Virus record (IMG/VR): IMGVR_UViG_3300038548_000688
Location: 1 to 26,686 of that record
DNA from: a virus
Length of the DNA: 26,686 nucleotides
Direction: 5' to 3' (one strand)
The stretch's first letter is position 1; each line of letters begins with the position of its first letter. Both the position numbers and the translations under genes were made by a program. Shown piece after piece: positions 5,101-25,105 of this stretch. The notes under the pieces were generated by a model. That model saw only the letters and a program-made list of their open reading frames with translations, searched no databases and had not been told where the DNA came from.

Positions 5101-7657
5101 CTTCCTGAAGTCGAGAGGAGCATCGATGGCGGAGATAGCCGTACAACTGGGGTCCCAGTTGGAGGCTGCTGGAGAGCATGCTAGGGAGTTCGGAATCGAG
5201 TTGGACCCCACAATAAAGAAGCTGATAGAGATGGCCGAAGCGGCAAAGGATACAGAAGATGCCGCCAAGCAGTGGGATGATGCCTGGTCAACGGCTATGG
5301 GCAACATCGTGTCCGACTTCTCAAAAGGAGTTGCGGACATGATCTTCGAGGGCAAGGGCTTCTCAACAGACATAGTCGGCATCTTCAAGCAGCTAGGCAA
5401 GACGCTCCTCAGTACGGTTATCAGCGGAATCATCAAGCCCATTATCGCGCAGTTCTCCGGTCTTGGCCAAAGCATCGGTGGCATCCTCGGCAAGATGTTC
5501 TCGGGTTCAGGAAGCGGAGGTGGTGGGATCTTTGGTAGCCTCTTCAAAGGCATAAAAGGCCTCTTCGGTGGTGGCGATAAACAGAAGAGCATTTTCGAAG
5601 CTTTGGATATTGGCGGTGGCGAGAAAGCCTTCTCGTTTGGTAAACTAGCCACGTCGTTAAAGTCCGGGGCTGGAAAGCTGGCTGGCATTGCGAAGGGAGC
5701 GTTCGCCCAAATCGGCAAGTTCGCGGCATCTGGATTTCTGGGTGCAGCGACCGTTGGCTTAGCCATAGCGATTCCTATTCTAATCGCCATCTTCAAGAAG
5801 AACGTGTTCAAGTCCGGAGTCAAGGAAGCCATGCGGGATTTCGGAGTGGAAATCGATAAAGGAGCCTTGGAATCCTTTGCCAAAGCACGCGGTCTTTCGA
5901 AGGAAACGTTCAAGGGGATCAGGAAGGACATCGAATCGTCGCCTCAGTTCTTCAAGGAGATCTTACTTCCAGCAGCCAAAGCAGCCGGGACGGTAGAACA
6001 GCTGATAGAGAAGTTCAGCAAGCTGCAGGCCTTCGGTGAGACGTTTGACTTTAGCGCAGGTGTCCGTAAAGCAGTAGAGAGTGGGGACTTTACCGACTTC
6101 AACAACCAGTTCAACGAAGTGTTCGAGCGTTCGGCAGAGTTGAAACGAGTGCTCCCCGACTTTCAAGAGAAGCTCCTGGTCGGCGGTAAGGCAGGACTTA
6201 GCAAGGGGCCTGACCCTGACGCTGTTGAGTCGGCAGCGTTCAAAGAGGCCAAAGTCGCGGTTGGCGGTCAGCAGGTCATAGAAGAGCTGATGAAGATAGT
6301 CGAGATCGTGGGCAACATCTTCACATCGGTAGAAGGACTGCGGATGATCGTTGAAGCCATCATACAGGCGACCGGTGATGCCAGTCTCATCGATGCGATT
6401 GAGGAGATTGGGAAGATGATCGCAGATGGCCCTGCGGGCGAGGTAGTAGATGAGTTGGAGGAGATCTGCGATACTCTAGAAGAAATCAAGGATGCCGTCA
6501 AAAACGGAGATGAAGTCACAGGCCCGGATGCAGCGGATGCAGAGACAGCAGCTGTCACAGCCGCTGCTAGAGAAGCCGCTGTCGCAGCGTTGAAGGTGAT
6601 ACAGATCAACCCCTTCAAAGGCACTCCCTTTGGGGCTCAGAGTACAAACTTCGGAGAGGCACGTGTGGTCACGGGTGAGGCTGGAGGTTTCAGGGCGCTG
6701 CGTGAGGAGATGACCACGATCGTACAGCGTATCGCCGAGCTTGGTGGGACCGGAGGTGCTTTCGGATCGATCTTCGGTAAGGGCAAGCCAGACTCCAGGT
6801 CGGAAGAAGACTTAGCCGAATTAGCAAAACTGAGTGCACGACGGCTGGAAATCGCGCAGCAAATAAGAGGTGCTGCCATGAAGGACATCGCAGCAGGACG
6901 GATCAGTGGGGATCAGCTATTCGGCGGCAGAAACAAGCCCGCTTTTGATGCAGCATCTTTGAGGTTGGTAGCTAATCTTAGAGAGAAATTCGGTGAGGCA
7001 GCGAAGGGGTTCAGCGATACCGCGTTGGTGCAGACGCAAATAAGTCAGGACAGAGCGCTGCAGTTCATGAGTCCAGAGGCAATAAGCAAGCTGGATCTGG
7101 ACCTGGATTTCATACAGAGGCTTTCCAAGATCACAGAACTGTTGGACGCACAGGCGGTTGGTGTGACCGGCTCGTTTACGACTTTGCCAGCGGAGATAGT
7201 CAGGGAGCTGAACGAAAACCTCCAAGCAGGAGAAGTGAAGGATCTCAGCCTACCTGACATCGAGGATGCAGCGGACCAAGTAGAGGAGATTGGGAAAGGC
7301 GTCATCGACGCGGAGGACTTCGGTGCGCTTGATACACCCGTAGTAACCGATGGTGTGCCCGGTTCTACCGGTGGGGAGCCATTACCAACACCCACCCCTG
7401 GTGGAGTGCTGGATCTGCTCACGCAAATTCGAGACAGGCTAGATGAAGATTCCGCAAAGACACAGGAGGAAGAAAAACAAGACGTCAGCCTGGAGTTCAA
7501 CATCCACAGTCCTTCGGAAGACCTCGCACGAGTTACCCGTGAGGAAGTGATCCCGGAGATCATCAAGATCCTACAGCTCGGCGGGCCTCTGGCAGACGAG
7601 GTGATCCGCGTGGTCACGGTCGGTCAACAGGGCGCAACGAATAGGAACCGCACGTAA
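2102..7657 (+). CDS. Tail tape measure protein
   Basis: At 1851 aa this protein sets tail length and is probably injected ahead of the DNA. The N-terminal quarter (about residues 90-340) resembles the TP901-type phage minor tail domain: a FESAFTGVRKTVDATESE-like helix, then the conserved motif with IGEAAGQLGI and TNLSAEQAATSLARFANI. Hydrophobic helices lie near residues 428-465, 589-615, 631-675 and 1211-1236, with long Ala/Glu/Lys-rich helical stretches between them. A Gly/Phe-rich segment sits near 1140-1160. It starts one base after the stop of the chaperone fusion, with AGGAAG at 2088-2093. Its stop overlaps the next start as TAATG. At about 1.5 angstrom per residue it predicts a tail near 280 nm. 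No lysozyme or peptidase motif stood out. Confidence 0.93.
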   Translation: MGAGTTLTFEVEVDTRDLEKGLKRVEGRLKQTGRTIGSEFQRGAKDVDTFSKGLATLGGSAKRLSDRLGSIGQQLTIGVTLPIAAAGFAIIKMGSDFESAFTGVRKTVDATESEFAALSKGFREMSKVIPITAIELAGIGEAAGQLGIETENILEFTEVMAKLGVTTNLSAEQAATSLARFANIMGTSQSRFEELGSTIVALGNNFATTEAEIVEFSLRIAGAGKTVGLSEDQIFAFGTALSSVGIRAEAGGTAISRIFLEVEKAVVTSSKELELFAAVSGVAAADFAKAFKEDAALALSGFLTSLGEMQEGGESTILVLEALGLDAIRVSDSIRRLSGAGELLTRAMDTASEAMKKNQALTREAELRFGTFESQLKLIKAVLDDVRVSLFESIKPALVGVVLPAIRATVNALALMADAFAALPSPIRTFTVLMVGLIALIGPLLGLGKLFILLGAKTLFFAARTAIARVVMARFAGSVAGGTTQIGKFLARSKIMKSAMDAGSKATSKMAAGFTQAGQKATVAASNMAQAAKATKAVGTQGVKTVSIFRRFTGVLGRGSKAAFTFIRAFKPFAGALGLIGGIMGRIGAFVFAGPVGWITGLFTLVQLVAKVTGQMKAFNSVTSAFGNLASSVWGFMGSILIVVGQKFASLFILIGRVMGAGGRLAIVIAELTGLMRLWQAVTKAVGIVLNFLASAINNAASFFDKMADKLEGVTASAKGQAFVVQTNLLKAWAELRQKGTEPVRRELDALRKNFDRTGNIEKFQQGLIKVNEALQAAAEGGKEVNPEIARLTAEMLAAEGATTKTKTALEQALETFKKFVAGPKEMVKILKAVTVESGDMGTTIVALGIDLADLEQKMLQAAAAGDMDEAAFLRAALAAGKLAESARNATQALKDFQEAPAKLVAMIIEQEKVTNDLSLALEVLQLSSSTLEEAWRRALKVGDQRSAQFLEQAIAAAKAREKLEELGEATVVMDERFKSLDDGLKAMRDTIPALGKDIDFLKSRGASMAEIAVQLGSQLEAAGEHAREFGIELDPTIKKLIEMAEAAKDTEDAAKQWDDAWSTAMGNIVSDFSKGVADMIFEGKGFSTDIVGIFKQLGKTLLSTVISGIIKPIIAQFSGLGQSIGGILGKMFSGSGSGGGGIFGSLFKGIKGLFGGGDKQKSIFEALDIGGGEKAFSFGKLATSLKSGAGKLAGIAKGAFAQIGKFAASGFLGAATVGLAIAIPILIAIFKKNVFKSGVKEAMRDFGVEIDKGALESFAKARGLSKETFKGIRKDIESSPQFFKEILLPAAKAAGTVEQLIEKFSKLQAFGETFDFSAGVRKAVESGDFTDFNNQFNEVFERSAELKRVLPDFQEKLLVGGKAGLSKGPDPDAVESAAFKEAKVAVGGQQVIEELMKIVEIVGNIFTSVEGLRMIVEAIIQATGDASLIDAIEEIGKMIADGPAGEVVDELEEICDTLEEIKDAVKNGDEVTGPDAADAETAAVTAAAREAAVAALKVIQINPFKGTPFGAQSTNFGEARVVTGEAGGFRALREEMTTIVQRIAELGGTGGAFGSIFGKGKPDSRSEEDLAELAKLSARRLEIAQQIRGAAMKDIAAGRISGDQLFGGRNKPAFDAASLRLVANLREKFGEAAKGFSDTALVQTQISQDRALQFMSPEAISKLDLDLDFIQRLSKITELLDAQAVGVTGSFTTLPAEIVRELNENLQAGEVKDLSLPDIEDAADQVEEIGKGVIDAEDFGALDTPVVTDGVPGSTGGEPLPTPTPGGVLDLLTQIRDRLDEDSAKTQEEEKQDVSLEFNIHSPSEDLARVTREEVIPEIIKILQLGGPLADEVIRVVTVGQQGATNRNRT

Positions 7658-10600
7658 TGCCACTCAATCTTCAAGTCAAAATCCCGATGATCGGTTACGG
7701 TTTCGGTTCCACCAGCTCTGAAACGAACTGGAGTAAGGCCGACCTGTTCTTAGATGATGGAGACTACGACGGAGCGACCTATTACTTCGAGGTCAATGCC
7801 TGGAACGACCAGGGCCAAGATTTCGATATGTTTTTACTTGGTGGGGACGACACTGTACTTGCGACGATAACCATACCTGCCAATACCGGAACTTCGATCA
7901 GCCATAAGAGGTTCAGGTCTTCTGCGTTCACGCCACAATCGGGTCTGATCCGTTACCGTCCTAGAATTGAAGCGACAAACGGTAGCAACGATGTTGGGAC
8001 CATGGGTTGCTTTATCATCATCGACCAAGTTGACGCCACGAAGACTCGGACTCCGATAATGGGATCGTTTCGGGCGGGAGGAACGTCTCAGAACCAGAAC
8101 GGCTACATCGATGCCGTCGGTAGCGTTTTCGGAGAATACTCTGACATTCCCAATACTAACGGTTTCATTAAAGACGATTCCTGGTATGAAGGCGGCACGC
8201 TGACTTGGGAAATGGACGTAACTGCTCGCAGCAACACCGGAGCTGGCGGAGACGTTGAGCTATACAATCGTGATGGTGACGCCCAAATAGGCACCCTGAA
8301 TTTCACCACTGGGGCCATTGAGAACAAGATCCTAGACATCACGGCTTCCCTTAATTGGGGTGCTGTCACCGATATTCTGAACTGGCGGCATAGGAAGATT
8401 ACGAGTGGGAGCATGTTCACTTACAGGTGTCTGCTCTTCGCAAAGATTACCGGCGGGATGACGAAAGCCAGATGTTACCACGTCTGCGCCTTCAGCAACG
8501 TCTGGGCTACCAGTGAAGATCATCAGCGGAGAGACCTTTATGAACTAAGCAAGTTCTCTGACGGCACTACGGTCAAGCTCGCTCTGGGCGGCTTCATGCA
8601 TTTCGCTGATGGCGACATTATGATGAAGGTCCGTTCTTACGGTACGAATGACGGCCCTGGATCAACAGGAGGTGCTGATGTTGACGATACGGAGGTCGGG
8701 CTGTCGCCGTTTTTTACTATCGAGTATGGCGAATCGTCGAGTAACATCGCGTCGCTGTTGACTGAGGGTGATCGGTACGGAGGCGTGACTCGTCGCACAG
8801 ACACATCTCGCTACAACGCGATGGTCTTCATGGTGTTCGATGTAGAACAGGCTACCCACAAGGAGAGGGCAGTATCAGACCAGATGGTTCTGACCGATGC
8901 TGTTGCTACGTTGCGGTCTGAGCAACTCCAACTGGAGGTTTCCGAGGGCGCTTGGCCAGCGTATGCCGAGGACGTTTTACTGTTCGCTGCTGCTCACCTC
9001 ACCAGAGAGGTTGCCGATGACATAAACGCGGCCACCTGGGCAGACGCCGTAGCCGTAGATCTGGCGGTTCATCAAAGCTCCGGTGTGGGCGATGCAATGT
9101 CGATGGATGATGCTATTGCTGTCCAGCTGTCTGTCCATCTCGAGATAAACGTCTCCGATGACATGAACAACTGGCAAGATGAGGCTTCGGTCCCCGAGCG
9201 CTCTTTGTTTGTGGGGCTGTCTCCGAACGTGCTTGTTCTGTTTACCATGGAGCTGGAGGGCGGGAACGACTACACGTCAAGCATACCAGTACGCGGAGCC
9301 GACCGGTATTTTGAGGGACGAGTAGTGAACTTCGGTCCCATCGATCGCTCGATTCCTGTTCCTTCTGGGATACCGCGAATAGGTGATGGGTTCGTCGAAT
9401 TGGCCGACACCGATCAAAAGTACAGGAAGCTCTTTGCCGCGAACCCACCACAAGGCCGTGCGATAGACCTGGTCATGATGCCTCCGGATGAGCCGCTTTC
9501 CATGGCGGCGCGTATTTACCGGGGAGAGATAACCCACGTTGACTTCCCAGAAGGTAGCGCGATCATCAACTTTGCCGACATCTCATTCGGGTTCCTGGAC
9601 GAAGACATCCCGGCATTGGGGACACCCGACAACTTCCCATCTCTGCCAGATCCAACAGTGGAGGTCTTCGTTCCTATTCCTATCGGTTTCATCAGAGCGA
9701 CGACCACCGAGGGTGCTTATGCTGCTCCGCTTGTAGACACCATCAACAACCTGTACATCATCAGCCGTTACCCGATAGAGCAAGTCACGGTGGTGTACAG
9801 GAAATCCGGAGACGACCCGTTCTTTACTGCCGTTTTGCCTACCGAGTTCAACGTTGTGACTGAGGCACGTTTCATCGATCCGAACGACTATGTCTTCGTC
9901 TATATCCAGTTCGCCTCTGCTCAACCAGATGGGACCGAGATTCGAGTGGATGTGAAAGGTTGGGTTCCCCAGGACGACGTCGGTCTTGGTTCGACGACTG
10001 CACAGACCGATCCAGCCCTCGTCATTAAAGCGTTCCTCAAGGAGATATCACGGCGGACGAATGACCAGCTGGATCTCCCTTCTTTTGATACGACGGAGGC
10101 CTTGACGACTTCGCGTGGATATTTGGCTGCTGGAGTTTTCGAAAGGGGCATAAACCAGCGCTCTGCGCTGGCCCAGCTGGTAAGCTCGTTCCAGATTGAC
10201 CTCTTCCAGAACAAAGACGCGAAGATTGCCATAGACCTGGCCGATGTTGCGGTTCCCACTCGTCCCGTCTTTGATGACATCCTACGGCTGGTTCGCGGCT
10301 CCGTCCACAATGCCCTGCCCAACCCGTACTACAACAGATTCCGGTATCGCTACTCACTTGACCATTCTACGGGTGAGTGGGGTGCGGAGGACCAGTTCGA
10401 CAATGAGATCGAAAGAGGCGTGACCGGCAGCTTGGTGGAGGCACCCCTGGTCGATATGTACTTTGTCCGTGATGGAGCGACTGCCATCCAGGTGATCTCG
10501 GACATCGCTGCGTATTTCTCTTTGGGCTCCTTCCAGTTCAAATCCGCCTTGCCTGGGCCACAGGTGGTGGAGGACCTGGAGCTTGCGAAGAATATCGGCA

Positions 10601-12135
10601 TCACACACTATGGTGGCATCAGTGCTGGAGGACTTGGATACACGAATGTTGAGTTCAGGACGCACAAACTCCTCTTCGACCCGAACCTTCTGAAATACGA
10701 AGTGAGCGCTATTCGCAGAGTCCAGCCACCGGCTGAAGCGTTCGGAGTCATAGGCGAAGACGTATTCTGGTCGGCCAACTTGATACCGGGTCCGTACATG
10801 GCCATCAACGGGGTCTTTTACGGAGCCTTTCTTAACGCCAGTGATAGGAGCAAGGTACAGATTCAACAGAGCCAAGATTGGGGGCTTCATTGGGAAAAGA
10901 TAGATGAGGCGAATGCTCCAAATCTGACCGATGACATCGCGTCGCATGACACGTACTGGGACGAAGGAAACGATCTTGTCATGGAGATCGCGACTCAGGA
11001 GAACGTAACTGGTCGGGTTGCCTACCATCGTTTCAATATGGGTACTGGCCGGTGGGTCCTTGTCGATGAAGAAGTGTTCGTTCCCCCTACAAATCCGGTT
11101 GGGCAGCATTTCGTCTCGATCATCAAGACGCGGCAGAGCAAGAAGCTCGTTATCTTCTTTCGAGCTTCGGACACGGTTGGAGATACGGACCCGCATTTGG
11201 AAAGGCAGCAGCTGACTATCAAGCCCGTGGGCGGTGCGTGGTCAACCCCAATATTCATCGGCGATGAGGAGTCTGGCGGCAATCCGAACCCTCGGAACTT
11301 CCGGGGCAATCGGGTCGTCGCCGGGAAGGAAGATCTCATCCACTGTTTTTATATGGTGAGGGGCAGTTTATCAGAAGGCTGGCACACAGAGAGAATAGAA
11401 GACTGGCATACCACCATCGACAACAACGAGGTCAAGGGTGACGACCTCATTCGCTTTATAGGCAACATCGTTTACTATCACTCCTCATTGCCGTACGGTA
11501 TTCCTGCTGCGAAACAAGACGCAGACGGGGAAGTGCTGATCGATCTTCCGGTCCAAGGCTTCGTCGGCAGAACGTCGAGCTTTCCGTATACATCCGACGT
11601 GATACTGGAATTCCCTCCCGATCCAAACTTGAACGTAGTCAGCCAGCCGGAACAGATAAGCGAATTGAACGCCTTCCAAGGCGAAGCGACTTCCAAAGGA
11701 TCGACTCGCTATTCTCACATCACTATGATGAAGAACTTCACAAACAACGTACGCTATGTGATCTTCCCTGGTGTGAACGAGAGCGTGGTCCAAAAAAGGA
11801 TCGCTGGAGATCTTCCAAGATTCAGTCCCTGGGACCCTCCCTTTGGTGACGGGTTTAGCAATAAAGCCGGTCCGACTTGGAACGCGGTTAGTGGCGCGTT
11901 CTTCATGTCGAAGATGGCGGCTAGACTTTATACGATCAACGGCATCGACTACATTGCTTTTTTCATGCAAGGCGGAATGGATAACGATGACCGAGACATT
12001 ATAAGGGATAAAGGAGCATGGACTGGCTCTGGAGTTTCCGCGACTTTTTTTAGATGGTTTCGAGTTAACGATCTTCCGGATGACCCGTCGTTTACCCGGA
12101 GGGTCTTCATTCAGAGTATTGCTGACGCTTTTTAA
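7657..12135 (+). CDS. Giant tail hub/fibre protein, probable receptor-binding tip component
   Basis: This 1492-aa protein is translationally coupled to the tape measure (TAATG). It reads as a mosaic. Residues 1-400 are beta-rich and look like two related jelly-roll-type segments (each with SF-R or GSFRAGGT-type turns and a long strand series). Residues 406-512 hold about five degenerate 22-25-residue repeats, each opening with V-S/A/G-D or V-S-E and continuing with D-A-V/I and alternating hydrophobics. Residues 528-830 and the following Asn/Leu-rich part resemble central tail hub regions of siphophages. Near residue 1072 an Asp-box (S-Q-D-W-G-L-H-W, pattern SxDxGxxW) begins, as in sialidase/BNR beta-propellers, and the C-terminal 400 residues are beta-rich. 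Role in host recognition or glycan binding is inference. Confidence 0.7.
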   Translation: MPLNLQVKIPMIGYGFGSTSSETNWSKADLFLDDGDYDGATYYFEVNAWNDQGQDFDMFLLGGDDTVLATITIPANTGTSISHKRFRSSAFTPQSGLIRYRPRIEATNGSNDVGTMGCFIIIDQVDATKTRTPIMGSFRAGGTSQNQNGYIDAVGSVFGEYSDIPNTNGFIKDDSWYEGGTLTWEMDVTARSNTGAGGDVELYNRDGDAQIGTLNFTTGAIENKILDITASLNWGAVTDILNWRHRKITSGSMFTYRCLLFAKITGGMTKARCYHVCAFSNVWATSEDHQRRDLYELSKFSDGTTVKLALGGFMHFADGDIMMKVRSYGTNDGPGSTGGADVDDTEVGLSPFFTIEYGESSSNIASLLTEGDRYGGVTRRTDTSRYNAMVFMVFDVEQATHKERAVSDQMVLTDAVATLRSEQLQLEVSEGAWPAYAEDVLLFAAAHLTREVADDINAATWADAVAVDLAVHQSSGVGDAMSMDDAIAVQLSVHLEINVSDDMNNWQDEASVPERSLFVGLSPNVLVLFTMELEGGNDYTSSIPVRGADRYFEGRVVNFGPIDRSIPVPSGIPRIGDGFVELADTDQKYRKLFAANPPQGRAIDLVMMPPDEPLSMAARIYRGEITHVDFPEGSAIINFADISFGFLDEDIPALGTPDNFPSLPDPTVEVFVPIPIGFIRATTTEGAYAAPLVDTINNLYIISRYPIEQVTVVYRKSGDDPFFTAVLPTEFNVVTEARFIDPNDYVFVYIQFASAQPDGTEIRVDVKGWVPQDDVGLGSTTAQTDPALVIKAFLKEISRRTNDQLDLPSFDTTEALTTSRGYLAAGVFERGINQRSALAQLVSSFQIDLFQNKDAKIAIDLADVAVPTRPVFDDILRLVRGSVHNALPNPYYNRFRYRYSLDHSTGEWGAEDQFDNEIERGVTGSLVEAPLVDMYFVRDGATAIQVISDIAAYFSLGSFQFKSALPGPQVVEDLELAKNIGITHYGGISAGGLGYTNVEFRTHKLLFDPNLLKYEVSAIRRVQPPAEAFGVIGEDVFWSANLIPGPYMAINGVFYGAFLNASDRSKVQIQQSQDWGLHWEKIDEANAPNLTDDIASHDTYWDEGNDLVMEIATQENVTGRVAYHRFNMGTGRWVLVDEEVFVPPTNPVGQHFVSIIKTRQSKKLVIFFRASDTVGDTDPHLERQQLTIKPVGGAWSTPIFIGDEESGGNPNPRNFRGNRVVAGKEDLIHCFYMVRGSLSEGWHTERIEDWHTTIDNNEVKGDDLIRFIGNIVYYHSSLPYGIPAAKQDADGEVLIDLPVQGFVGRTSSFPYTSDVILEFPPDPNLNVVSQPEQISELNAFQGEATSKGSTRYSHITMMKNFTNNVRYVIFPGVNESVVQKRIAGDLPRFSPWDPPFGDGFSNKAGPTWNAVSGAFFMSKMAARLYTINGIDYIAFFMQGGMDNDDRDIIRDKGAWTGSGVSATFFRWFRVNDLPDDPSFTRRVFIQSIADAF

Positions 12136-18188: not shown

Positions 18189-19757
18189 TCATTTCCGTTT
18201 CAGGTCCAGGGCTGCGTCGATGACCTTCTGTTTCTCGGTCAGCATGTCGGTCAAGACGGCGTCGATTGAGCGGTGCACCACCAGGTGCTGTACCAGGACG
18301 TTGTTGTGCTGCCCAATCCGATGCAGCCGGTCTTCGGCCTGGGAGATGTTGCCGGGAACCCAGTCCAGCTCGGCAAAAACGACCGTTGACGCAGCGGTCA
18401 GGGTGATGCCGACACCTGCAGCGCCTATCGTACCGATGAAGACCCGATTGAGGTCGTTGGCTTGGAAGGACGCGATTGCTACCTCTCTATCTTTGAGGCT
18501 GACGTCACCGGTAATCCATACGGGGTTGAAATCGACGAGCCCCAGCACCAACGCTTCCACCACTGCCTTGTGATGGGCGAAGATGACGACCTTGTCCTCT
18601 GACTCGAGCATCTGCTTGATGTGGTTCACGGTCCAAGGGACCTTGGCCAACGCCGTCTCCTTCCGGACTTTGACCAGCCTGGTCAGGGCGCTGCTGGCTC
18701 CGCCAGTGCTCATGAAGTCGATAACCAAGTCGAGGTCGCTCTTGTCGATGGACTTCTCGATTTTGGCCATCTCGGGTATGTCGCCTTGCGGGATGATGAT
18801 GGTCTGCCTGAACTTGCTTGGCAGGTCCTCCAGCACCTCCTCTTTCAGACGTCTGATCATGATGGTGCTGCGCAGGCGCTTCTGCAGCTCGTCCAGGTTG
18901 CTTGCTCCGCTGGCGTCCCATACCGTGTCCGTGTTTGATATCCACTTCCTGTGTCCGTCGCAATAGCGTTGGATGAAGTCGAGCCAGTGGTCCCAGTTGT
19001 CTGGGTCCAGAATACGCAGCAGGTTCCACAGTTCGGATGGCCGACTAAGGATCGGGGTGCCGGTCAGAAACAGAAGGCGCTTTGCCCTCTGCGCTACTTT
19101 TTTCACCATCTTGCTTCGCTGCGTCTTGCTGTTCTTGATGTAGTGGGCCTCATCGCAGATGAGCAGGTCCCACTTGCGCAGCACGACCTCGTCGAATCGG
19201 TGCAGGATCTCGTAGTTCATGATGACGATGTTCGTGTTCGGGAAGTCGTATTTGGGATAGGCCACACCAACGTCCATATCACGGGCGAGCCAGCGGTTGA
19301 GTTCATACTGCCAGACGAACTTGACACCTGCGGGGCAGACGACGAGGACGGACTTGATACTCTTGCGGTGGTTTATCAGGCCGATGGCCTGGATGGTCTT
19401 GCCCAGGCCCATCTGGTCGGCAATGAGCGTATTCGGTCGGCTGGCCGCGTACTGGATGCCGACCTTCTGAAATGGGAAATACTCAAGGTCCTCGGGTTTT
19501 TTGGACACAGATACAGATGAGCCTTGGGACCGTGATAGGAGAAGGGACGCTCGTTGTTTTTTGATTTCGGTTTTAATTCGACGCAGGCATGCGTCATCGG
19601 TGTGATCTAACAGGAGGGAGGCCTTGTAGGTGGACTTGGTCCACCAGACCTTGGAGGATGAGTCCCACGAAAAGCCAGCACGCTTGGGGATGTGCCGCTC
19701 GTCGTAGGACCCGTGGAATTCGTATCTGTCGTAGTCTTTGATGAAGTGAAGCATCAT
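18189..19757 (-). CDS. SNF2-family (superfamily 2) DNA helicase/translocase
   Basis: A 522-aa ATP-dependent DNA translocase. Visible motifs in order: Walker A ADQMGLGKT (residues 113-121, lysine 120), DEAH box (202-205), motif III TGTP (232-235), and motif VI EDRLHRIGQ (475-483) with its arginine. Motif III is followed by the usual WNLLRIL helix. The short N-terminal region (1-95) has a Trp/Lys-rich segment like the HARP-type extension of SMARCAL1 relatives. The length is that of a bare SNF2 engine with no accessory domain. In phages such proteins are usually placed in replication, recombination or repair, but the substrate cannot be read from the sequence. ATG 19757 overlaps the stop of the 306-aa gene as ATGA, so the two are coupled. 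Confidence 0.92.
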   Translation of the reverse strand: MMLHFIKDYDRYEFHGSYDERHIPKRAGFSWDSSSKVWWTKSTYKASLLLDHTDDACLRRIKTEIKKQRASLLLSRSQGSSVSVSKKPEDLEYFPFQKVGIQYAASRPNTLIADQMGLGKTIQAIGLINHRKSIKSVLVVCPAGVKFVWQYELNRWLARDMDVGVAYPKYDFPNTNIVIMNYEILHRFDEVVLRKWDLLICDEAHYIKNSKTQRSKMVKKVAQRAKRLLFLTGTPILSRPSELWNLLRILDPDNWDHWLDFIQRYCDGHRKWISNTDTVWDASGASNLDELQKRLRSTIMIRRLKEEVLEDLPSKFRQTIIIPQGDIPEMAKIEKSIDKSDLDLVIDFMSTGGASSALTRLVKVRKETALAKVPWTVNHIKQMLESEDKVVIFAHHKAVVEALVLGLVDFNPVWITGDVSLKDREVAIASFQANDLNRVFIGTIGAAGVGITLTAASTVVFAELDWVPGNISQAEDRLHRIGQHNNVLVQHLVVHRSIDAVLTDMLTEKQKVIDAALDLKRK

Positions 19758-20712: not shown

Positions 20713-21174
20713 TTACGTTTCACTGCGCTTGCTCTCCAGGAACTTCCAGAGGAGCTGGGTCGCTATCTGCTCTTCAGCCCAGACTTTAGAGGCCATTGCT
20801 ATCGGGATCTGAAGACCGAAATAGTCGGCCTCCCCTTCCTCCAAGTTTTCCCAGGTCGGATCGATGACCAAGCCGGTGTCGCGGTCAACAAGCCAGGCAT
20901 GGTCTGTCGGAATGATCCGACAGGCATAGCCCTCGTAGTAGTCGTAATCGCCGAACATGGCGATCTTCTGTGCGTTCAAATAGCACTCCTTGACCTGGCA
21001 GTGATGCTCCGCTTTGAGCGAGCTGCTGAGGGCCAGGTCCATCTTGGGGAACTCGCTGCACAAATCGAGGAGCAACTCGAAGATTTCGACAGCTGGATTC
21101 ACCTCGCCATTCTGTCGGTCGGCGTTCATCTTGTGCAGGGTGAGTATCTGCTCGCAGTAGCGTTTCGAGTTCAT
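20713..21174 (-). CDS. Unknown protein with a transglutaminase-like Cys/His/Asp pattern
   Basis: 153 aa. Key pattern: ECYLNA (Cys64), YYEGYA (80-84), HAWLVD (His92) and VIDPTW (Asp105). Cys, His and Asp in this order match the triad order of transglutaminase/protease-like folds, and YEGYA...HAW...IDPTW recurs in phage proteins of unknown function. Whether it is an active enzyme is unproven. I choose ATG 21174: GGAGG lies 8 nt upstream, while ATG 21180 is only 2 nt from it and more upstream starts read through an intergenic hairpin. The upstream 90 bases are non-coding. Confidence 0.65.
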   Translation of the reverse strand: MNSKRYCEQILTLHKMNADRQNGEVNPAVEIFELLLDLCSEFPKMDLALSSSLKAEHHCQVKECYLNAQKIAMFGDYDYYEGYACRIIPTDHAWLVDRDTGLVIDPTWENLEEGEADYFGLQIPIAMASKVWAEEQIATQLLWKFLESKRSET

Positions 21175-21220
21175 TTTCATTTCCTCCTTTCCTTTATGGT
21201 GTTGGTATAGCCTTTGGGGC

Positions 21221-21263: not shown

Positions 21264-22364
21264 TCACGCGGCTACATCGGTATTTGTGGAGCGCTTCAGC
21301 AGCGTCAAGCTGCCCGGAGCCACCGGACGGATTACGCCCGATTTCGCGAACTTGATCTTGACGTAGTGCTTGCCGGTCTTGCTGTTATGGTATCCAGCAA
21401 CCACCCCGGTCGATCCCAGCTTCGTAGCGGCCTTGCCATCGTACTCGATGGTGCTACCGAACGGGAAGTCGGCCATTTGAGGATAGTCCTCCTGGACGCC
21501 CATCAGGGTGTTGAGCACCTCTGTCTTCAGCACATCGACCTTCTTGGCCAGCGTGGTCGCATCCTTCGACAGCAGATCGCTGTACGCCGTGCACTTCCGG
21601 TGCAGCATCTTGAACTGCTCCAGCCTGGACTCGTAGGTGGAACCGCGAGTGAAGTTGGCAGCACTGAGCCGCTTGACTTCCTCAGCCGCTTCCTCGACCT
21701 CAGTCTCCAGGGCCTGCTTGGCGAGCCCACTCATCTGCTTGCGGGTCGCTTTCCCATCAGCGAAGGCCAGATGGTAGAGCGTACCGAAGGAGTCGCGCCC
21801 GTCATTCAAGATACCGAACAGCTGCTGCAACTTGGCGATGACCGTGTCATCCTGCACGAAGTAGTAGCCGCCGTTGTCCTTGAGGGCGATGCCACCCGTC
21901 GTCTTGACATAGCGCGTGATCATCGTTCGCAAGTCGCCAGAGGTGTGCAGCTCCTGGTACTCTTCAAAGAGCTGGGAGATCTCCGAGTTCTTGAAGTTGC
22001 CCCGGAACTGGATCTCCTGCGTCCTCTTGTCGTAGATGATGATGCTTTCCTTGGACAGCTTGATGTCGATTTTCTTCGGGTCAACGACCTCACGGACCAG
22101 CCCCATGGCCAGCACTTCGGCATCATTCCGGATCTTTACGACCCTGTTGTCCTCGGCAAGCGCTTCCAACGCCTTCTTCATGTTCCGCAGCTTTCTGGGA
22201 ACGGCAGGCATCCAGGCCTCACCAATAGAGCGGTCAAGCGCCTTGCGCAAGTTGCGCCTGGAGATCTTGTACTCGTTGATGGTCCAGAAGACCGCGTAGC
22301 CCAAGACCGGCAGTCCCTTGACTGCCTCCTCGATTTTCTTGCTTACTCTCTTTCTCGGTGTCAT
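21264..22364 (-). CDS. Unknown 366-aa protein, third member of the MoxR/VWA cluster
   Basis: Start ATG 22364 is fixed by GGAGG 7 nt upstream; longer starts read into the VWA-side gap. The N-terminal half is mixed alpha/beta, with a Lys/Arg-rich start, GYAVFWTINEYKIS at 22-35 and AWMPAVPRKLRNMKKALEAL at 50-69. The middle (about 210-290) is helical with AFADGKATRKQMSGL and Glu-rich segments. The C-terminus (about 318-357) reads like a small barrel of the KOW/SH3 type: TGVVAGYHNS, HYVKIKFA, VIRPVAPGSLTLL. I do not recognise a named family with confidence. Place and spacing (50 nt after the VWA gene) suggest it works with the ATPase and VWA protein. Confidence 0.65.
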   Translation of the reverse strand: MTPRKRVSKKIEEAVKGLPVLGYAVFWTINEYKISRRNLRKALDRSIGEAWMPAVPRKLRNMKKALEALAEDNRVVKIRNDAEVLAMGLVREVVDPKKIDIKLSKESIIIYDKRTQEIQFRGNFKNSEISQLFEEYQELHTSGDLRTMITRYVKTTGGIALKDNGGYYFVQDDTVIAKLQQLFGILNDGRDSFGTLYHLAFADGKATRKQMSGLAKQALETEVEEAAEEVKRLSAANFTRGSTYESRLEQFKMLHRKCTAYSDLLSKDATTLAKKVDVLKTEVLNTLMGVQEDYPQMADFPFGSTIEYDGKAATKLGSTGVVAGYHNSKTGKHYVKIKFAKSGVIRPVAPGSLTLLKRSTNTDVAA

Positions 22365-22413
22365 TTCTTTTCCTCCTGTAAATGACGTGGTGGGCCGAAG
22401 CCCACCGTGATTG

Positions 22414-23955
22414 TTAGATTGAGAACGTGGCATCGAATGCCTTGCCCTCGTTGCGGAGTATGTCACTGCCTAAGCCGATGACCTTATCCGAGAACGTGTC
22501 TAGCACGTTCGTTGCTGTCACCCCTGGGACGTCGGGGTCGAATGTGTAGCTGCTGATCCAGATGGAGTAAAGGCTGAAACCCATCTCCTTCTTGGCCTGC
22601 TTGAACTGGGCCAGGAAGCCCTCATCCAGGTTGGCCAGTCCGTCAGTGATGAACACGACGTCAGCATCTTTGTACACATCGGAGATCAGTGGACGACCAT
22701 CGAAGATGGTGCCGCTTCCGGACTCGTATTGCACGGTCCCACCGGGACTCCATTTCCCGTCTCCGTCGGGATTGCCAAGCGCTATTCTGCCCAGTATTGG
22801 GGCGAACTTGGTGCCTCCGTTGACGCCACGGGATAGGAACTCACAAAGGTCCTCCATGCGTTCCCCACCGGAATCGGCAGCGATCTGGATTTGGTCCTTG
22901 ACCTCCGTGTTGAACAGCACAGCAGCGAAAGCTCTCTTCTGCTTCCGGGCTATGAAGAACATAGCCAAGGCGATGGCCTTCGACCAGATGTCAGGTGGGC
23001 CTTCCATCGAGGTCGAGCAGTCGATTGCGACTACCACGGGTCCCTTGCCTTTGCTGTCCTTGCCACTCAGCTTGTACTGTGACAAGTTCGATTCCACATA
23101 GTCCTTGAGAAACATCAGCTCGAGGTCCGGATCGGCCAATTTGGCCAGCTCGGATGAGTCGAGGTCGTCCAGGTTGTTGCCTGTCTCGAGTCCTTCGATC
23201 TCCGTCCGCTCGTATTGGACCTTCTCTGCTTGCTTCTTCTCGGCTATGCGAATCATGCGCCCTGCGATGTTGGCGATCTCCTTGATTTTCGGATACTCGG
23301 TCAGCATCTTGGCCACTTGGATCTTCTCCTTGAGCGAAGCCACCGAGAGTTGCCCCTCGCTGTCTCCACAACCAAGCATTCGGGCTGCTGCTTCGGTTGC
23401 AGCTGCGTCCTCTTCGGCCTCTGCCAAACCGGCTCGCATTGCTTGCCTGATCTCGTCTTCATGGGCCTCCGCTATCGCCTCTCCTTGAGCCTGCGCCATC
23501 TGCATCTTTTCCTGCAGCTCCTTGAACGTGGCCATGGCATCCGGGTCGCTAGCGTCGAGGTCCTCCATGAGGTCCTTCGTCTGCTGCTCCAACTCGTCTA
23601 TCTCGCATTGGCGCTCGACTAGAGAGCTGGGCAGCTCGTCCAGGACGTGGTTGACGGCATTGAGCGCCGAGATGCTGTTCACCTCGTCGCCCCTGGTGAA
23701 GTTCCGTAGGTGCTGGAACTCCTCCAGCTTCATCATCTGCTGGATGATCCGCTTGGCCATCTTGCGTCCGGATGGCGCTTCGTCGCAGACCTGGGGGTCG
23801 TACTTGTAGAAACTGCCGAAACCATCGCAAAGCAAGTCCTCGTAGGAGGACAGATTCGGGTGGTCTTCGAGCATCTCCAGGACGCCTTGATTCAGCCCTT
23901 TGTATTCGTCGAAGAGCTGGACGTCCATGGAGTCAACGTTCACTACGTTGCGCAT
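22414..23955 (-). CDS. Von Willebrand factor A (VWA) domain protein
   Basis: 513 aa, start ATG 23955 with GGAGG 5 nt upstream. The C-terminal VWA domain has a complete metal-dependent adhesion site: D312-C-S314-T-S316, T382 in GGTKF, and D438 in ITDG. The VWA core begins about residue 306 (VVVAIDCSTS). The N-terminal 300 residues are almost all helical, with Glu/Lys-rich coiled-coil stretches at 110-185 and 205-275. This matches the general layout of ViaA/CobT-like partners of MoxR ATPases, which dock substrates for AAA+ remodelling. It is one junction after the MoxR gene (13-nt gap). That an Mg2+-bound VWA partner acts with the neighbour ATPase is well established for the family; the phage target is unknown. 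Confidence 0.88.
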   Translation of the reverse strand: MRNVVNVDSMDVQLFDEYKGLNQGVLEMLEDHPNLSSYEDLLCDGFGSFYKYDPQVCDEAPSGRKMAKRIIQQMMKLEEFQHLRNFTRGDEVNSISALNAVNHVLDELPSSLVERQCEIDELEQQTKDLMEDLDASDPDAMATFKELQEKMQMAQAQGEAIAEAHEDEIRQAMRAGLAEAEEDAAATEAAARMLGCGDSEGQLSVASLKEKIQVAKMLTEYPKIKEIANIAGRMIRIAEKKQAEKVQYERTEIEGLETGNNLDDLDSSELAKLADPDLELMFLKDYVESNLSQYKLSGKDSKGKGPVVVAIDCSTSMEGPPDIWSKAIALAMFFIARKQKRAFAAVLFNTEVKDQIQIAADSGGERMEDLCEFLSRGVNGGTKFAPILGRIALGNPDGDGKWSPGGTVQYESGSGTIFDGRPLISDVYKDADVVFITDGLANLDEGFLAQFKQAKKEMGFSLYSIWISSYTFDPDVPGVTATNVLDTFSDKVIGLGSDILRNEGKAFDATFSI

Positions 23956-23968
23956 GCGGTCCTCCTTT

Positions 23969-25066
23969 CTAGAGGTTCATTTGCAGCACGGTGGTGAGCA
24001 CTTCACGCTGCAGGTCATCGATTTTGGAACGGACCTCATCCACCTTGGCATTGTTGACTACGGTGGGGAAGCCTTTCAGCAGCTTCTTGATCTTGTCATT
24101 GGCTTCAGCACCGGCAGCGGTGGTGTCGGCTTCAAGGGCGTTCCCGTGTAGCTCAGTTACCGTATCCAGGATCACGAGTGCTTTCTCAAGTTCCGGATTG
24201 CAGAACGAAAAGATGATCTGGCGAACCTGACGTTGCTCGTCGGGCTGGTTCCAGAAGATGTTCGCTAACATCCCCAGGTCATCACTGGTGACTTCGTTTC
24301 GACCCTCAAACCAGGCGTGCGCCTGCAGGATCTTGTTGGACTCGTTCCACCTGCGAGGTGAGAACTCGAAGCCTTCGCGCTTCATTTTGGACCGCAGCTC
24401 AACGACCGTGTCCAGGATCGCTTCCGGGATCGTCACTTTGTCAACTTGGGCCTGAGCTTTTTCCAGCTCCTCAAGCGTGATCGTCTCGGTGATCTTGAAT
24501 CCGTTCATCTGCATCATCTTCTTGAAGTTCGCGTCGTCCACGATGTCGCCGACGTAATACCGCAGCAGGAACCTGTCCCACAGGGCATTGCCCATGTCCT
24601 CTGGCAGCTCATTCGAAGCCGCGAACACGGAGTGAATCGGCGTTTGGTAGGTCTGCCCGCTTTGGTAGAATCGACGGCTTTCGTCCGTGATTCGCAGCAA
24701 GCTGGCGTTGATGGAGTCGGAGGCTTTCCAGATCTCATCCAAGAAAGCGATATGAGCCTCCGGGAGCTGGTGCGTGGTGTTCCGTTCGTACTTGTCCTCC
24801 TTCAACTTGGTCACTCTCACCGGACCGAAGATGTCCTCGGGCTTGGTGAACTTGCCCATCAACCACTCGAAGTAGTTAGCGTTGGTGACGGACTTGCAGA
24901 ACTTCTCGCCTACCAGCGACTTTGCTGTTCCTGGGGGTCCGATAGCGAACAAGTGCTTCCGGGCCAGGACAGCCACGATGAAGCCCCGCAGGACCTCATT
25001 GCGCTCGACCAACTGGGAGTCCAATGACTCGAAGATGGCCCTGACTTTCTTCTGTTGTGCGTTCAT
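23969..25066 (-). CDS. MoxR/RavA-type AAA+ ATPase
   Basis: 365 aa, start ATG 25066 behind GGAGG. Motifs in order: Walker A GPPGTAKS (43-50), Walker B IAFLDE (106-111), sensor 1 ASNE (150-153) and the DRFLLR segment (164-169) with a candidate arginine finger. FEWLMGKFTKPEDIFGP at about 66-82 is the typical MoxR-family pore-proximal signature. Residues 180-330 form the helical lid, with FSPRRW (sensor 2 region). MoxR/RavA ATPases form hexamers that remodel proteins, usually with a VWA partner, and that partner is the next gene. The likely role is chaperone or maturation of a metalloenzyme or phage factor; the substrate is unknown. Confidence 0.93.
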   Translation of the reverse strand: MNAQQKKVRAIFESLDSQLVERNEVLRGFIVAVLARKHLFAIGPPGTAKSLVGEKFCKSVTNANYFEWLMGKFTKPEDIFGPVRVTKLKEDKYERNTTHQLPEAHIAFLDEIWKASDSINASLLRITDESRRFYQSGQTYQTPIHSVFAASNELPEDMGNALWDRFLLRYYVGDIVDDANFKKMMQMNGFKITETITLEELEKAQAQVDKVTIPEAILDTVVELRSKMKREGFEFSPRRWNESNKILQAHAWFEGRNEVTSDDLGMLANIFWNQPDEQRQVRQIIFSFCNPELEKALVILDTVTELHGNALEADTTAAGAEANDKIKKLLKGFPTVVNNAKVDEVRSKIDDLQREVLTTVLQMNL

Positions 25067-25105
25067 TTCCTTTTCCTCCTAAAGTTAAAGATTCGAAAAC
25101 GCGAT

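Follow-up and report, generated by a model that had tools for sequence, protein, structure and literature searches.

A MoxR-VWA-DUF6744 gene trio shared by phages and conjugative plasmids

Here we describe a set of three adjacent genes, encoding a MoxR-type AAA+ ATPase, a VWA protein and a member of the Pfam family DUF6744, on the minus strand of IMG/VR virus record IMGVR_UViG_3300038548_000688. The whole record of 26,686 bases, probably a fragment, is the window of this analysis. The MoxR-VWA-DUF6744 trio recurs in many unrelated phages and conjugative plasmids, which marks it as a genuine three-part machine of mobile DNA that has so far gone undescribed. Neighbourhood surveys starting from either the DUF6744 or the MoxR family leave us nearly certain that the three proteins constitute one functional unit, as the initial annotation of the window had proposed.

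Results

The trio in the window

The three open reading frames (ORFs) lie in the order MoxR, VWA, DUF6744, with intergenic gaps of 13 nucleotides (nt) between the first two and 49 nt between the last two; the coordinates, order and gaps of the initial annotation were all accurate. The sequence TCCTCC, which is AGGAGG on the minus strand, is found a few nt upstream of each of the three starts. The features of the locus are listed below, with the Walker A motif and the ribosome-binding sites read from the sequence.

23969..25066, minus strand: gene for a MoxR AAA+ ATPase, RavA-type without the LARA region, 365 amino acids (aa); bpMoxR 2.6e-49, AAA_lid_8 2.1e-17, family profile to RavA 5e-89, RavA alignment
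24917..24940, minus strand: Walker A motif GPPGTAKS, MoxR residues 43-50; G46, K49 and S50 invariant in 26 relatives
25074..25079, minus strand: ribosome-binding site AGGAGG of the MoxR gene
22414..23955, minus strand: VWA gene, ViaA-type, with a helical N-terminal half and a VWA domain bearing a metal ion-dependent adhesion site (MIDAS), 513 aa; tblastn, ViaA 3.5e-40 against the clade profile, structure model and fold match
23008..23022, minus strand: MIDAS motif DCSTS, VWA residues 312-316; the D and both S residues unchanged across 23 relatives
23960..23965, minus strand: ribosome-binding site AGGAGG of the VWA gene
21264..22364, minus strand: third gene, DUF6744 family, 366 aa counted from ATG; PF20529 2.4e-17, 63.3 bits (cut-off 27), structure model
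21513..22310, minus strand: DUF6744 domain, residues 19-284; Pfam match, predicted local distance difference test (pLDDT) score about 90 over most of it
21267..21476, minus strand: C-terminal tail special to the window's DUF6744 protein, residues 297-366, fold unconfirmed; no Pfam or PDB match, pLDDT below 50, absent from relatives
22371..22376, minus strand: ribosome-binding site AGGAGG of the DUF6744 gene

Co-occurrence of the three families

Because the window proteins are divergent, alignments were needed to scan viral contigs; scans of these contigs with each of the three single proteins gave no matches. The DUF6744-first survey searched viral contigs and 84,980 species genomes; counting in two Brevibacillus plasmids, one faecal fragment, phage MTATph1 and the window itself, it yielded 44 distinct loci. 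A MoxR gene was nearby in 38 of these and a VWA gene likewise in 38, always on the same strand, while the next most frequent neighbour family reached 9 of the 44. Several of the misses are contig ends, or cases in which MoxR or VWA is encoded elsewhere in the same genome or virus.

In the reciprocal survey, scanning viral contigs with a MoxR profile gave 69 loci, 55 of them distinct, which were scored in stop-to-stop frames: VWA was found in 54, DUF6744 in 49 and all three in 48. DUF6744 was on the same strand in 48 of the 49 loci, at a median gap of 216 nt, and within 3 kb in 45. The profile used to detect DUF6744 gave no matches to reversed decoys and no locus with more than one, and Pfam's own DUF6744 model, which is independent of the iterated profile, recovered 42 of the 50 proteins, window included.

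A third survey, of 399 evenly drawn Bacilli genomes, found 21 DUF6744 genes in 20 genomes, against 0 of 14 control genomes. A VWA gene of the same clade lay at most 4.1 kb from 19 of the 21 (median 1.7 kb), and Fisher's test of the association of DUF6744 with VWA at the genome level gave p 1e-24. The third family thus accompanies MoxR and VWA in phages and Bacilli alike, and is not one that occurs mostly apart from them.

Gene order varies. Among the viral loci we counted 33 with DUF6744-MoxR-VWA, which also prevails in Bacilli, 11 with MoxR-VWA-DUF6744, the order of the window, two with MoxR-DUF6744-VWA and one with VWA-MoxR-DUF6744. With at least four orders, the trio therefore survives rearrangement, and function is the likeliest reason for genes to stay together when their order is reshuffled in this way.

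Several observations weigh against a single three-part machine. DUF6744 occurs without such a MoxR in three viral records (G002, 52 kb; G418, 55 kb; G420, 152 kb) and in a 15.8-kb faecal fragment. Conversely, MoxR and VWA occur without DUF6744 in 6 of the 55 viral records and in phage CL131, and 12 of the 31 strong VWA genes in Bacilli lack DUF6744, 11 of these being complete pairs at sites without it. The window's DUF6744 protein is itself divergent, with 14-26% identity to its relatives. Moreover, the query rows of the MoxR-first survey all came from DUF6744-linked loci, which biases the scan towards this clade, and 5 of the 55 loci had been known beforehand.

In a quick MoxR tree with long branches, in which the window's own placement is unsure, the 11 Bacilli pairs (L104-L114) nest inside the DUF6744-linked clade. 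Loss of DUF6744 is therefore the simplest reading for these pairs, which look domesticated. No alternative third gene adjoins the pair in all 11. In a further group of about 38 Bacilli genomes, which lack DUF6744, the ViaA-type protein is more distantly related (E 1e-37 to 1e-49). In cyanophage CL131 (L005 758-5785), genes for an LPD29 protein, MoxR, VWA and DnaN stand in a row; the row includes a possible alternative partner.

Carriers and gene neighbours

The initial annotation had considered the trio as a phage system. Phages do carry it, but that frame was too narrow, as the trio is also found on plasmids and integrative elements. The Brevibacillus plasmids with the trio encode type IV secretion and Flp-pilus ATPases, a TraM-type coupling protein and a relaxase-like replication protein, and the parts of the conjugative plasmids that were read gave no indication of virion genes. 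A fold search with the window DUF6744 model led to the Haloarcula virus HVTV-1, whose gene 25 passes the Pfam DUF6744 cut-off (3e-19) and whose genome also has AAA and vWA genes; relatives of gene 25 occur in haloviruses related to HVTV-1.

The families most frequent around viral trios are exonucleases, primases and DnaB helicases, with single finds of ligase, polymerase, Sak4 and RecU. The commonest further neighbour is a RecB/Cas4-like PD-(D/E)XK exonuclease, present at 13 of the 55 loci (L134-L202, e.g. L187 2680-4152). Most neighbours had no match at all, and head or tail families were absent from the 25 neighbour families listed. A gene for the ribonucleotide reductase large subunit is located just upstream of the DUF6744 gene in both MTATph1 (L002 9698-13172) and HVTV-1 (L116 5957-10966). 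The remaining DUF6744 loci that were checked have no such gene, and ribonucleotide reductase was rejected as a target.

The MoxR and VWA proteins

All the features of AAA+ membership are found in the window MoxR, which had rightly been called intact: Walker A, Walker B (DE), sensor-1 (N152), arginine finger (R165/R169), sensor-2 (R238) and the MoxR lid, with residues invariant or nearly so in 26 relatives. AAA_5 was matched in Pfam in addition to bpMoxR and AAA_lid_8. Searched against solved structures, the family profile finds RavA (5e-89) and next the MoxR structure 2r44 (1.9e-14). Aligned with Salmonella RavA, the window protein has no LARA region, and its C-terminal part falls about 140 residues short.

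For the VWA protein the Pfam VWA match was weak, and it was tblastn that pointed to a ViaA relative. The claim of a complete metal site held: D312, S314, S316, T382 and D438 are all present, and are invariant in 23 relatives except for T382 (22/23). So did that of a helical N-terminus, as the structure model has helices over residues 9-248, followed by a VWA fold. Sequence and model together predict the layout of ViaA, a helical N-terminal part and then a C-terminal VWA domain with a MIDAS; RavA binding by that part is a feature of ViaA. The model fits MIDAS domains, and the longest alignment among the matches listed, over 204 residues, is with the MIDAS of midasin (Rea1 and MDN1, solved with UBL ligands; Z 15.8 and 15.5, root-mean-square deviation (rmsd) 3.6-3.7). 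Pfam gave no beta-propeller match in this protein. The Arg-rich C-terminal membrane helix of ViaA is not present in the window protein, which ends KAFDATFSI in the place of MRSRLLRRWRR in ViaA. In most Bacilli VWA proteins of the clade the last residues read AF[ED]I or similar (ATFSI in the window), possibly a docking tail.

The DUF6744 protein

The structure model of the third protein has a confident core, with pLDDT of about 90 over residues 10-290, for which there was no PDB match at E 0.001 and no clear PDB relative. The soluble domains of CorA/ZntB aligned with Z 12.4 and rmsd 2.3 over 97 residues, and were rejected as the fold of the family: the match covers only the mostly helical 158-301 part, and because it is within chance reach of helical bundles, it was not used to assign a function. 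DUF6744 proteins share conserved motifs, RPSGG[VI]YF among them, with RPSGG only partly conserved in the viral members. The initial annotation had seen a KOW-like barrel at the C-terminal end. This was not confirmed: the tail, from about residue 297 to 366, gave no Pfam match and no PDB sequence match even at E 10, is modelled with pLDDT below 50 and is absent from the other aligned DUF6744 proteins, although two short strands are predicted in it.

Comparison with described systems

Phage MoxR-vWA pairs (in 0305phi8-36, jumbo phages and haloviruses) and ternary MoxR-vWA systems are already known. The nearest relative is RavA-ViaA of Escherichia coli and Salmonella: as initially annotated, the MoxR module and the VWA protein are clear homologues of RavA and ViaA, in the same gene order. 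The window system differs in its shorter MoxR (365 aa, against 509 aa for RavA), which is without the region that holds LARA, in a VWA protein without the C-terminal Arg-rich helix, in the addition of DUF6744 as a third gene and in having mobile elements as carriers. In E. coli, both LARA and the ViaA helix bind lipids, and LARA also binds LdcI (PMC9489729). Since both are lacking in the window proteins, the trio need not share the membrane role of RavA/ViaA.

MoxR-vWA-centric ternary systems with VMAP, iSTAND, FtsH or beta-propeller parts have been described (Kaur et al. 2020, PMC7159879). They resemble the trio in combining an AAA+ MoxR, a vWA co-chaperone and a conserved third component. 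In the window, however, the third component is DUF6744 alone in Pfam, with no VMAP, iSTAND, FtsH or beta-propeller, and Pfam and PHROG scans gave no effector or peptidase domain on any of the proteins; furthermore, the trio is found in phages and plasmids, whereas those systems occur mainly in multicellular bacteria.

Among viruses, the group 2.2 jumbo phages likewise carry MoxR and vWA, but their vWA bears a metallopeptidase domain, and no DUF6744 partner is named in the part of the report consulted (PMC7824862); tblastn with the window MoxR among phage records matched no such phage. The two-subunit MoxR-type chaperonin of Bacillus phage 0305phi8-36 was noted in 2007 in a non-structural region, with no third partner named in the part of that report consulted (PMC2147016). 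Acidianus two-tailed virus (ATV) also has a MoxR with a vWA-MIDAS partner (p618/p892), the MoxR being distant (27% identity over 45% of the query) and the pair involved in virion tail development (PMC7911831). HVTV-1 has all three families in one genome; about 15 kb separate its DUF6744 gene from the AAA and vWA genes, which stand on the opposite strand and are much more divergent. No paper on DUF6744/PF20529 was found among open-licence papers.

Proposed mechanism and alternatives

We propose that the trio forms one ATP-driven protein-remodelling machine carried by mobile elements. MoxR would be the AAA+ ring motor, as RavA is, and the VWA protein the coupler, its helical N-terminal part docking on the ring and its MIDAS metal gripping an acidic residue of a partner, both as in ViaA and midasin. 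DUF6744 would be a third subunit dedicated to the machine, and most likely the adapter or handle through which a specific target is recruited, which is the job that LARA, missing from the window MoxR, does in E. coli RavA; a MoxR without LARA next to a separate DUF6744 suggests that the choice of target lies with the third protein. In midasin, the MIDAS holds a factor on which the AAA ring pulls. By that analogy DUF6744 could be the protein held by the MIDAS, or the holder of the target. Gene context and the conjugative plasmids point to a DNA replication or recombination complex, the element's own or the host's, as the most likely target, rather than the virion. The surveys and sequences show three intact genes, their families and their conserved co-occurrence, whereas contact between the proteins, their order of action and the target are what we infer, and we offer the mechanism as a whole tentatively, rating it a little short of an even chance.

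The adapter role is drawn by likeness to LARA, and a client role would fit the same data, which counts against our proposal. DUF6744 could be one of the element's own enzymes or regulators, folded, cofactor-loaded or switched on by MoxR and VWA in the way that NorQ/NorD and CbbQ/CbbO serve their enzymes. Dedicated MoxR-VWA pairs usually adjoin the gene of their client, the co-occurrence would be explained equally well, and the conserved motifs such as RPSGG[VI]YF speak for this reading too. However, neither an enzyme fold nor a metal site was recognised in DUF6744, and the incomplete conservation of RPSGG in viral members argues in the same direction; we regard a client role as rather unlikely.

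Another possibility, which we judge unlikely, is host takeover or counter-defence, in which the trio would dismantle or block a host complex (a polymerase, nuclease or defence system) on entry of the phage or plasmid. The groups that share it, phages, conjugative plasmids and one group of archaeal viruses, all meet host defence at entry, and it is the mobile elements that keep DUF6744 while chromosomal relatives have probably lost it. Against this, the neighbours of the trio are replication and recombination genes rather than anti-defence clusters, no defence-library search having been made with these proteins.

Virion assembly, also raised in the initial annotation, has precedents in the chaperone roles proposed for ATV p618/p892 (PMC7911831) and for jumbo phages (PMC7824862), and the window does encode a major tail protein and a tape measure protein, on the plus strand. 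It is nonetheless weakened by the absence of head or tail families from the neighbour list and by MTATph1, in which over 30 kb separate the trio from the annotated virion genes, which lie on the opposite strand. Conjugative plasmids with the trio, together with the replication and recombination neighbours, make an assembly role very unlikely and favour DNA metabolism or host takeover. Least probable of all is a phage-carried conflict system directed at competing elements, such as MoxR-vWA-VMAP, which has the same two core parts and a conserved third protein (PMC7159879) but from which the window differs in having no effector or peptidase domain and a third protein unlike the four known kinds.

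Flanking genes in the window

On the 3' side of the trio and on the same strand are genes for a small protein, a 306-aa protein and an SNF2-type helicase. A 154-aa protein directly downstream (20713-21177, minus strand) has no Pfam or PHROG match; by eye, its DHAW...VIDPTW is reminiscent of transglutaminase or papain-like folds. The helicase (522 aa, 18189-19757, minus strand) matches only residues 665-1137 of the 1881-position phrog_62, and is a stand-alone helicase part. A 1492-aa ORF directly after the tape measure gene (7657-12135, plus strand) has no PHROG match at E 0.01. Scans for promoters and terminators yielded no signal above shuffles, and there are no tRNA genes in the window.

Conclusions

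It is possible, and we hold this somewhat more loosely than the mechanism itself, that a dedicated MoxR-VWA-DUF6744 machine, common to phages, tailed archaeal viruses and conjugative plasmids, remodels a replication, recombination or host complex, with DUF6744 as the target-selecting subunit, dropped by bacteria that keep the pair without the element. MoxR-VWA pairs are widespread, but few of their substrates are known. A third gene that stays with the pair when gene order changes, in phages and plasmids alike, provides a direct handle on how motors of this type choose their targets, and gives the unannotated DUF6744 family a testable role. The trio also suggests one unrecognised need, in replication or takeover, that is common to very different mobile elements.

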